In this document: in pieces, positions 6,655 through 56,651 of the stretch
Layout: each line of letters begins with the position of its first letter
Position numbering within the stretch: the stretch's first letter is position 1
Assembly (NCBI RefSeq): GCF_004349105.1
Contig: NZ_SMLB01000006.1
Span: 124,001-188,000, forward strand
Direction: 5' to 3'
Source: Jiangella aurantiaca
GTDB taxonomy: Bacteria; Actinomycetota; Actinomycetes; Jiangellales; Jiangellaceae
Length of the DNA: 64,000 bases
Program-made: the position numbers and the translations under genes
Notes under the pieces: model-generated
What the model saw: the letters and a program-made list of their open reading frames with translations, nothing else
The model's database searches: none
Told to the model about the DNA's origin: nothing

Positions 6655-9938
<3,284 letters not shown>

Positions 9939-9972: not shown

Positions 9973-10044
9973 GTTGATCTTGGAGTTTCCGGGGTATTCA
10001 TCGGACATTCCGGGCGGCAACTCCACGGTTACTCCAAGATCAAC
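9973..10044. repeat. GTTGATCTTGG inverted-repeat element, copy A
   Basis: GTTGATCTTGGAGT (9973-9986) is perfectly inverted at 10031-10044. The complement of 10021-10044 matches the left arm of the copy at 55037 at 23 of 24 positions. The centre shares ATCGGACATT and a terminal GCAA with the copy at 55933. The element fills most of the gap between carB and pyrD and ends two bases before the G-rich ribosome-binding stretch of pyrD. It encodes nothing. The RNA would form a long imperfect hairpin within the operon transcript. Confidence 0.85.
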
Positions 10045-53513: not shown

Positions 53514-55028
<1,515 letters not shown>

Positions 55029-55036
55029 GCCGTGAG

Positions 55037-55108
55037 GTTGATCTTGGAGTAACGGTGGAGATGCGGTCCGATTCGCCCGATTGATTCCACAGTTACTCCA
55101 AGATCAAC
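55037..55108. repeat. GTTGATCTTGG inverted-repeat element, copy B
   Basis: GTTGATCTTGGAGTAAC (55037-55053) is perfectly inverted at 55092-55108. With one mismatch the arms extend to 55059 and back to 55086, 23 bp each, with a 26-base loop. It begins nine bases after the sigA stop, so it may act as the sigA terminator. Its left arm is 23/24 identical to the inverted right arm of copy A at 9973. Confidence 0.9.
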
Positions 55109-55172: not shown

Positions 55173-55913
55173 ATGACCCGCATCCTCGTGCCCTACCACC
55201 TCGACGAGCACCGGCCCGGCCTCGACGTGCCGTTCGAGCCGGGGGTGACGGTGACGCGCGAACTGGCCGGTGACGACGTCTGGGCGCGGCTGGCCGGGCT
55301 GTACGACGAGGTCGCCGACGTCGTGGCGGCCGACGTGCGGGGCGGCGAGGTGCCGCTGGTGATGTCCGGCGACTGCATGGTGTCGCAGGCGGTCGTCGCC
55401 GGGGTCGAACGGGCCCACGACGGCGCGCCGCCGTCGGTCGTCTGGTTCGACGCGCACGGCGACGTCCAGACGCTGGAGACGACGACGTCCGGGTACCTCG
55501 GCGGGATGCCGCTGCGCATGCTGGCCGGTTACCGGCCGGAGCTGCTCGCCGACGGGCTCGGGCTGGCGCCGGTCCCGGAGGACCGCATCGTGCTGGTCGA
55601 CGGGCGCGACCTGGACCCGCCGGAGCGCGACTACCTGGCCGCGTCGGAGATCCGGCAGGTCTTCACGGCCGAGCTGCACTCGTCCCGGGTTCCGGACGGC
55701 CCGGTCTACCTGCACGTCGATCTGGACGTGATCGACGGCGCGCAGCTGCCGGGCCTGCTGTTCCCGGTCCCGGGCGGGCCGTCGGCGAGCGAGGTCGGCC
55801 AGGCCGTCCGCCGCGTGCTCGACACCGGACGGGTCGCGGCCGTCGGCCTCGGCTGCACCTGGCACGACGGCCAGGGCGCGGCCGCGCGCGTCCGCGGCGC
55901 GCTGCCGTTCTGA
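55173..55913 (+). CDS. Arginase/agmatinase family protein
   Basis: 246 residues of the ureohydrolase fold. Metal motifs are WFDAHGD (Asp-His-Asp) and YLHVDLDVIDG (Asp-x-Asp). The first motif reads MSGDCMV, with Cys where classical members have the His ligand of GGDHS. The C-terminal Glu of the classical substrate site is not evident in VGLGCTWHDG. It may be a divergent hydrolase with one altered metal site; substrate unknown. It is flanked on both sides by copies of the same inverted-repeat element and has no operon partner. Confidence 0.82.
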   Translation: MTRILVPYHLDEHRPGLDVPFEPGVTVTRELAGDDVWARLAGLYDEVADVVAADVRGGEVPLVMSGDCMVSQAVVAGVERAHDGAPPSVVWFDAHGDVQTLETTTSGYLGGMPLRMLAGYRPELLADGLGLAPVPEDRIVLVDGRDLDPPERDYLAASEIRQVFTAELHSSRVPDGPVYLHVDLDVIDGAQLPGLLFPVPGGPSASEVGQAVRRVLDTGRVAAVGLGCTWHDGQGAAARVRGALPF

Positions 55914-55932: not shown

Positions 55933-56004
55933 GTTGATCTTGGAGTTGTTCGGCCATCTATCGGACATTTCACCCCGCAAATGCCGAACAACTCCAAGAT
56001 CAAC
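55933..56004. repeat. GTTGATCTTGG inverted-repeat element, copy C
   Basis: Bases 55933-55954 (start GTTGATCTTGGAGTTGTT) are perfectly complementary to 55983-56004: 22-bp arms with a 28-base loop. The loop shares ATCGGACATT and CGCAA with copy A. It starts 20 bases after the stop of the arginase-like gene. Copies B and C thus bracket this single gene. Confidence 0.9.
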
Positions 56005-56054: not shown

Positions 56055-56651
56055 ATGTCGTCCTCGGGTCAGATCACGCCCCGTCGATCCGTGCCGCCGG
56101 CCCTGGCGGGCACCGTCTCGGTGTTCGTCCTCGTGCTGCTCATGTGGGCCGAGGAGATCGTCGACGCGTTCCCGGGCGTGAATCTCGACCAGTACGGCAT
56201 CCAGCCGCAGGACCCCGAGGGCCTCGTCGGCATCGCCGCGGCGCCGTTCCTGCACGGCGGGTTCGGCCACCTCATCGCCAACACCGGCGCGTTCCTGGTG
56301 CTGGGCTGCCTCATCGCCATGACGACGCGGCGGTTCTGGCCGGTGACGATCGGCGTGGCGCTGGTCGGCGGGTTCGCGACGTGGCTCGCGGCCGCGCCCA
56401 ACACCGTGCACATCGGCGCCAGCGGACTGGTCTACGGCTACGCCGCGTTCCTGGTGGCGTGGGGCGTGTTCAGCCGGCGGGCGCTGGCCATCGTGGTCGC
56501 GGTCGTCGTGGTGCTGATGTACGGCGGCATCGTGGTGGGCGTGCTGCCCGGCCAGCCCGGCATCTCCTGGCAGGGACACCTGTTCGGCGCGCTGGCCGGT
56601 GTGCTCATGGCGTGGCTGCTGCGGGGGAGCGGCGCTCGTCAGCGCGCGTGA
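56055..56651 (+). CDS. Rhomboid family intramembrane serine protease
   Basis: 198 residues with six membrane helices. HGGFGHLIANTGAFLVLGCL is helix 2 with the conserved HxxxN. The nucleophile Ser123 is in GASGLVYGYAAF, and the catalytic His175 is in WQGHLFGALAGVLMAWL. It cuts helices within the membrane; natural substrates are unknown. The 3' end overlaps the convergent DUF1579-like gene by 47 bases, so no terminator fits between. Confidence 0.93.
   Translation: MSSSGQITPRRSVPPALAGTVSVFVLVLLMWAEEIVDAFPGVNLDQYGIQPQDPEGLVGIAAAPFLHGGFGHLIANTGAFLVLGCLIAMTTRRFWPVTIGVALVGGFATWLAAAPNTVHIGASGLVYGYAAFLVAWGVFSRRALAIVVAVVVVLMYGGIVVGVLPGQPGISWQGHLFGALAGVLMAWLLRGSGARQRA

Follow-up and report, generated by a model that had tools for sequence, protein, structure and literature searches.

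MITEs of the Correia, RUP and ERIC type are non-coding, have inverted ends and occur in many copies, mostly between genes, and integron attC sites have core ends of the form GTTRRRY and RYYYAAC and come with gene cassettes. REPs are palindromes recognised by a terminal GTAG tag and form subfamilies with alternative complementary stem bases (PMC3733652); they are also the known target of the IS110-family element IS621 (PMC11208160). RPEs are short dispersed palindromes of ca. 150 bp that occur between genes and in frame within protein genes, nearly half of those of R. conorii lying within ORFs (PMC10969869). The R. conorii RPEs carry CGTC at one end and, like other CGTC-type repeats, have no dedicated transposase (PMC3733652). 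The same survey reports palindromes of the GTAG type from Proteobacteria, Cyanobacteria, Chloroflexi and the PVC group, and those of the CGTC type from five phyla; Actinobacteria are not mentioned in it (PMC3733652). Independently of selection, template switching at quasipalindromes can make inverted arms more alike (PMC7202029, PMC8604942).

The palindromes of Jiangella described here resemble RPEs in being short, dispersed and intergenic, with some copies in frame within genes, but differ in length (72 bp versus ca. 150 bp), sequence and phylum and lack the CGTC end tag. They share with REPs and REPINs a position 3′ of genes, subfamilies with alternative complementary stem bases and targeting by an IS110-family element; however, they begin with GTTG and end with CAAC, have no GTAG tag and measure 72 bp instead of 20–40 bp. 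In addition, no Y1 (RAYT, PF01797) transposase was found in any of the 12 Jiangella genomes at E 0.001, in a search that returned a match in 5 of 14 named control genomes. A RAYT/REP origin was rejected on the missing transposase and tag. Terminal inverted repeats, a short non-coding body, many, mostly intergenic copies and copy-free sites in relatives recall MITEs, from which the Jiangella repeat differs in that no target duplication of fixed length was detected and in being a palindrome over nearly its whole extent. An integron attC site was rejected, since GTTGATC is, by eye, unlike GTTRRRY and the window copies have ordinary chromosomal genes as neighbours. The repeat works like an RPE, REP or MITE but, by the tests applied, belongs to none of these groups. 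The palindromes are probably copies of a small, non-autonomous, hairpin-forming mobile repeat of Jiangella.

Three palindromes in the window

The window, i.e., the whole 64,000-nucleotide stretch of Jiangella aurantiaca DNA that was analysed, contains three palindromes with the following features.

9973..10044, no strand: copy 1, 72-bp palindrome in the carB-pyrD gap of the carB-pyrD-pyrF gene row (carB stop 9936-9938; pyrD start 10060)
9973..9985, plus strand: copy 1 left end, 13 bp, GTTGATCTTGGAG
10032..10044, minus strand: copy 1 right end, 13 bp, inverted
55037..55108, no strand: copy 2, directly 3′ of the main sigma factor gene (53514-55028) and followed by an arginase-family gene (55173-55913)
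55037..55049, plus strand: copy 2 left end, 13 bp
55096..55108, minus strand: copy 2 right end, 13 bp, inverted
55933..56004, no strand: copy 3, in the gap that separates the arginase-family gene from a gene of the rhomboid family
55933..55945, plus strand: copy 3 left end, 13 bp
55947..55954, plus strand: copy 3 inner left arm (positions 15-22), variable among copies, pairing with 55983-55990 in a predicted hairpin
55955..55982, no strand: copy 3 asymmetric centre
55992..56004, minus strand: copy 3 right end, 13 bp, inverted

A preliminary description had reported three 72-base copies at 9973-10044, 55037-55108 and 55933-56004, and both coordinates and length were confirmed. All three copies start with GTTGATCTTGGAGT and finish with ACTCCAAGATCAAC; the complementarity claimed for their ends extends over 14 bp and is perfect in each. 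Its finer comparisons also held when read from the sequence: once inverted, the right arm of copy 1 agrees with the left arm of copy 2 in 23 of 24 bases, and ATCGGACATT and GCAA occur in both copy 1 and copy 3. The window contains the exact 14-mer six times, each time as an end of copies 1–3, and has seven matches if up to two mismatches are allowed, against 0.06 expected and at most one in any of 100 shuffles. The intergenic position claimed for the copies (carB/pyrD, sigma factor/arginase-family and arginase-family/rhomboid-family) agrees with the output of a rough, home-made gene finder trained on the window, which places them in gaps of 121–177 bp between genes on the same strand. The predicted hairpins of copies 1, 2 and 3 have energies of −36.3, −39.0 and −40.6 kcal/mol (z = −7.9, −7.4 and −10.7 versus shuffled controls), with up to 22 continuous pairs in the single-strand fold.

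Distribution and anatomy of the family

The dispersed copies expected of a mobile element in the preliminary description were found. In the J. aurantiaca genome (6.62 Mb, 102 contigs), the 14-mer matched 116 times per strand with at most one mismatch (controls, 0 and 1); 72 pairs had exact ends, and allowing one open position at each end gave 110 paired copies (control, 0). By the same rule, the other Jiangella genomes contained 97 (G008), 80 (G002), 60 (G007), 55 (G003), 39 (G001), 39 (G011), 27 (G009), 14 (G006), 9 (G005), 4 (G004) and 2 (G010) copies. The family was thus present in all 12 Jiangella genomes examined, with 2–110 copies each. Among 393 genomes drawn from the class, it occurred in 14, namely these 12, G018 (4 copies; probably Haloactinopolyspora) and G078 (3). 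In the set of named contigs, 77 of the 79 stretches among the matches listed belonged to Jiangella, one to Haloactinopolyspora alba and one to Dactylosporangium fulvum. The last of these, in a 10.5-Mb genome, is a single 76-bp palindrome with the same 14-bp ends (L065) and may reflect chance, transfer or a distant relative. The copies of G078, a genome of another family, are three 62-bp palindromes of the GTTGATCATGGAG type (L371).

Lengths of 108 copies of several species, picked by near-exact ends, were 72 (80 copies), 71 (23), 73 (3), 70 (1) and 76 bp (1). Several Jiangella genomes also contain a second size class of 60–61 bp with the form GTTGATCATGGAGAA...TTCTCCATGATCAAC (G008:C1:4212494, 4268232, 4326892 and 4545652; G007:C2:60096). 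Viral contigs gave no exact match to the palindrome and plasmids no match to the one 72-mer queried, and phage or plasmid carriage was rejected on these grounds. Literature searches gave no paper with the exact 14-mer and, for the GTTGATCATGGAG variant, papers unrelated by title; among the matches listed for actinobacterial palindromic repeats, Jiangella genomes and actinomycete repeats, the family is not named. The family is mainly restricted to the genus; within these searches, it is new in sequence and host and of a known general kind.

Each copy is a long hairpin composed of near-fixed 13-bp ends, a variable and mostly self-complementary inner arm, and an asymmetric centre that proved conserved once copies were oriented alike. 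Pairing was examined in copies at least 60 bp from a locus end; here, as in the target-duplication and flank-extension tests, copies were not turned to one orientation. Positions 1–14 were fixed by the search pattern in one pairing sample and nearly so in the other, and their constancy is therefore uninformative. At positions 15–20 and 22, which were not used for finding copies, pairing was far above permutation (z = 5–12). Little excess was seen within the dominant arm type; among the 59 of 166 copies outside it, pairing exceeded permutation at positions 17–20 (z = 3–6), and columns 17, 18 and 20 held three or four Watson–Crick pair types. Perfect pairing at positions 15–21 occurred in 54 of 166 copies versus 34 expected (largest of 500 permutations, 44). 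These perfect seven-base arms are of three distinct kinds, with 51 of the 54 copies having one sequence, and outside the dominant type the number (3 of 59 versus 1.4 expected; largest permutation, 6) showed no clear excess. The idea that the inner arm has undergone numerous independent compensatory changes was rejected, since the perfect arms are nearly all one sequence. The covariation that the preliminary description had linked to an RNA role is present in the inner arms and by itself is no proof of such a role. Selection on the hairpin or arm-to-arm correction by template switching would each produce this pairing. Template switching could account for arms that are paired yet variable, but leaves the dispersal and the copy-free sites unexplained.

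Outside the core, the left flank is rich in C and the right flank in G over ca. 20 bp, whichever way the copy lies. Contiguous pairing of at least six bases beyond the core was found in 7 of 166 copies versus 0.7 expected, and a general continuation of the palindrome into its flanks was rejected given that it was seen in these seven only. A weak positional flank signal reaches ca. 10 bp in 38 near-consensus own copies, which suggests a moving unit that probably extends a little beyond 72 bp. Likewise, the added sequence at the filled sites of copies 1 and 3 (ca. 117–122 bp) exceeds 72 bp, suggesting that 72 bp may not mark the true borders of the unit.

Gene context and variation among species

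Gene context, called with the same home-made gene finder, and flanks were recorded for 87 of the about 110 own copies, those in fetched loci. The 82 classifiable copies comprised 47 in tandem, 29 in convergent and 6 in divergent gaps, against 44.6, 14.1 and 23.3 expected by intergenic length (P = 6e-7) with four other genomes and the window, not the own genome, as background. Copies favour convergent gaps, avoid promoter gaps and usually lie just 3′ of genes: their median distance is 40 bp to the nearest 3′ gene end and 130 bp to the nearest 5′ end, versus 35 and 29 bp for random intergenic positions.

This bias towards 3′ ends and convergent pairs, together with the strong hairpins, would suit a functional RNA or terminator, i.e., hairpins in the 3′ part of transcripts that stop transcription or shield the mRNA, are spread and kept by selection and have their fixed stem base read by a protein. 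The several base-pair types per inner-arm column point the same way, as does the place of copy 2, since a GC-rich hairpin follows the sigma gene in 7 of 11 relatives (with GTTTCG after it in three). We nevertheless regard this explanation as unlikely. The window copies have the hairpin of an intrinsic terminator without its T run or any T-rich tail, copy 1 being followed by GGGGGAGGGGG, and assignment to intrinsic terminators was rejected on this basis. A scan of copies 2 and 3 gave a single terminator-like match, straddling the left border of copy 3 (1 versus a shuffle mean of 0.3), and Rfam gave no match at gathering score in the window, the sub-threshold matches of copy 1 being microRNA precursor models. 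In tandem gene pairs, the asymmetric centre points along the direction of transcription in 21 copies and against it in 26. Finally, copy 1 and a copy in G007 and G008 separate pyrimidine genes whose counterparts in relatives overlap or adjoin, a position at which termination would do harm.

Three of the 87 own copies lie in frame within predicted ORFs, a small minority in contrast to the RPEs.

L248:650-1951: E2 acyltransferase, copy in the linker between the lipoyl and E3-binding domains (Pfam domains around the copy)
L240:786-2726: copy at the joint of a LivM-LivG fusion
L005:634-1635: copy in the tail of a sugar-isomerase-like protein

The E2 linker copy occurs in 5 of 12 species (the own genome G000, G008 and G009, and more diverged in G011 and G006); it was not seen in G001, G003, G004, G005, G007 and G010, and in G002 a contig break lies nearby. 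Since E2 is of similar length with the insert (420–433 residues) and without it (417–429), the linker seems to have been replaced rather than lengthened.

The preliminary description had proposed that empty sites in relatives would support mobility. Such sites were found, the copy being absent at the three window loci in 7, 11 and 11 of the 11 relatives, respectively. At the copy 1 locus, a copy is present in G002, G003 and G006, and one with damaged ends lies beside a contig border in G011; the carB–pyrD gap with the repeat measures ca. 100–120 bp in the own genome, G002, G003 and G006. In the seven relatives without it, the stop of carB and the start of pyrD overlap, leaving no gap. Copies 2 and 3 were absent from the fetched sigma–arginase–rhomboid regions of all 11 relatives, with up to three mismatches allowed per end. 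The arginase–rhomboid gap, measured to the nearer rhomboid start at 56055 as the anchor, is 19–24 bp in G002, G004, G005 and G010 versus 141 bp in the own genome. The copy of G007 and G008 lies between pyrD and pyrF, genes that overlap in G010; in G002, the same gap retains GATCAAC with C-rich and G-rich flanks, which is likely a relic of the repeat.

At further loci, 26 near-consensus own copies were compared with the sister species G002. Both flanks were located for 16 of these, of which 14 lack the copy in G002 and two share it; the other ten, with no locatable site there, are outside the count. Many of the 14 sites contain other sequence instead of a clean junction (one, that of own copy number 3, has a different palindrome), so insertion and replacement are not always separable. 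Other palindromes were also observed in orthologous gaps, namely GGATGGGTGAGCGTTCGG... in G002 (L344) and GTTGATCACGTTAAG... in G007 (orthologue of G008:C1:4343276), and Jiangella gaps appear to exchange palindromes. Within the own genome, identical 72-mers occur at loci with different flanks (L001, L007 and L173). The repeat has apparently been mobile recently. For the carB–pyrD and E2 copies, presence disagrees with the species tree, and gain, loss and interspecies exchange are therefore indistinguishable at these two sites.

An explanation that needs no mobility of the repeat itself is spread by recombination, with repeats carried by larger repeats or by gene conversion. Some flank similarity to another copy (E 1e-4), partly adjoining the core and over 40–350 bp, was found for 27 of 87 own copies; C36:117004, which has the same near flanks as C40:28670, was counted together with it. 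Longer common flanks unite two groups of copies in the own genome. One is a larger repeat of several hundred bases with ends alike inverted (CTTCTGCTGCTTCCGTGGGTGCG), which occurs with and without the 72-bp core (L178, L043, L411-L418 and L429). Copies 0, 19, 21, 40 and 47 belong to its core-containing form; at C80:120096 the arms are joined without a core, which may never have been present or may have been lost. In the second larger repeat, the member C10:114896 has only the ten bases GTTGATCAAC in place of the core, which we infer to be a deletion relic with the two ends joined at their common GATC. GTTGATCAAC occurs 67 times in 12 genomes versus 0 for the reversed control and is commonest in G004 (13), a genome with few copies, and two inspected sites resemble coding sequence. 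It was accordingly rejected as a general excision scar, and we regard C10:114896 alone among these occurrences as a relic.

Replacement also seems to have acted on the carB–pyrD copies of the own genome and its sister G002, whose interiors differ at 23 of 46 positions and whose ends are identical. As an account of the whole family, however, spread by recombination alone is very improbable. No such flank similarity was found for 60 of the 87 own copies; gaps whose genes overlap in relatives gained the repeat and little else; and the same core sits within two different outer repeats, indicating that it is independent of either, though able to travel with them.

The ends and the interior evolve differently at old sites. 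Five sites are common to at least two species, with 11 partner copies located through their surroundings, including two damaged copies in G011 and the E2 copy of G006. The 13-bp ends of these partners have nine substitutions and three deleted bases in 286 positions, compared with 119 changes in 506 interior positions (Fisher P = 3e-14); as reference copies and branches recur among the comparisons, which therefore lack independence, the P values here are rough guides. Third-position divergence of the neighbouring genes predicts 44.6 end changes against the 12 observed, or 22.3 if the reference copy, found by its ends, is assumed to be intact (P = 0.013 for at most 12 changes). End changes per partner were 0–2 in nine of the 11 and 3 and 5 in the two G011 copies.

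Judged from the sequences, the slow change of the ends may reflect selection on them or the replacement of interiors from other copies. It is unexpected for an inert insertion and counts against the mobile-repeat reading, and it is also in favour of a functional RNA. Alternatively, the repeats could be a family of protein-binding sites for a chromosome organiser or regulator, with the ends bound as DNA, the interior serving as filler and selection keeping the ends. The difference between 12 and 119 changes over the five sites is what such sites would show, with the reservation that the partners share a reference copy and branches and that both G011 copies have damaged ends. This explanation appears improbable, because a binding site has no need of a paired inner arm and because copy numbers of 110 to 2 among close species, with most positions unshared, are unlike those of an essential organiser. 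A further, quite doubtful reading combines both aspects: the 13-bp ends would be a docking site under continued selection, with the hairpin interior free to change or be swapped, and a Jiangella protein acting on the ends would place the repeat as well as swap its interior with other copies. This would explain both the conserved ends at old sites and sister carB–pyrD copies that differ only inside.

Search for a mover and a model of spread

The suggestion of a miniature mobile or RNA element made in the preliminary description is supported by the dispersed copies and the copy-free sites in relatives. Two further checks that it proposed gave negative results. Target duplications are not general: left and right flanks of 166 copies at least 260 bp from a locus end were no more similar in local alignment than permuted flanks, in a test that could miss a duplication of a few bases. 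One of the 166 stands out, C4:116062 (L001/L031), with a 90-bp target duplication that is single in G002 and ca. 100 bp of extra left flank beside it. Secondly, no transposase or longer element with these ends was found in the sequence examined. None of 415 distinct left ends, in sequence mostly fetched around copies, opened a longer element or a parent insertion sequence, which may be a further difference from MITEs. Six of the 415 had no near partner, comprising three IS110 insertions and three chance-like matches. In the fetched loci of the own genome, every left end (at most one mismatch) had a near partner except two, one with an IS110 insertion and one in a copy shortened to 43 bp.

The IS110-family insertion sequence, in which transposase domains were found, sits at one fixed central point in three own copies (L181:2432-3922 in G000:C10, L378 in C22 and L380 in C65), with the junction ..CGGGGCT/ACTAGACG, where the slash marks the border. 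All four own-genome matches of the element run into contig ends, and therefore only left junctions are visible. The same element also occurs at non-repeat sites in the own genome (C18), G011 and G007. Its non-coding left end carries CTTCTGGGCT, which resembles the non-repeat targets in G000 (C18), G007 and G011 and could be a bridge-RNA guide. The element uses the repeat as a target, comparable to the targeting of REPs by IS621 (PMC11208160), and is no explanation of the repeat's own spread.

For the mobile repeat that we favour, the following route is inferred. An enzyme supplied in trans would recognise the ends or the folded hairpin and insert the repeat. Insertions would be kept mainly where they are harmless, closely following stop codons and at a distance from promoters, with occasional in-frame insertions tolerated in flexible linkers of proteins; copies would be lost through deletion across the hairpin. 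Resident repeats serve as landing sites for the IS110-family insertion sequence and can hitch-hike in larger repeats.

The family thus represents a dense, apparently recently active group of palindromes in an actinomycete genus of soil bacteria. As no REP-linked transposase class was found in the genus, Jiangella provides a clean background for an enzyme search. The family offers near-fixed ends, sites in relatives that have no copy, insertions in frame within proteins and an IS110-family element with the repeat as its target, and the slower change of the ends at common sites makes the gain of a host function by such repeats directly testable.
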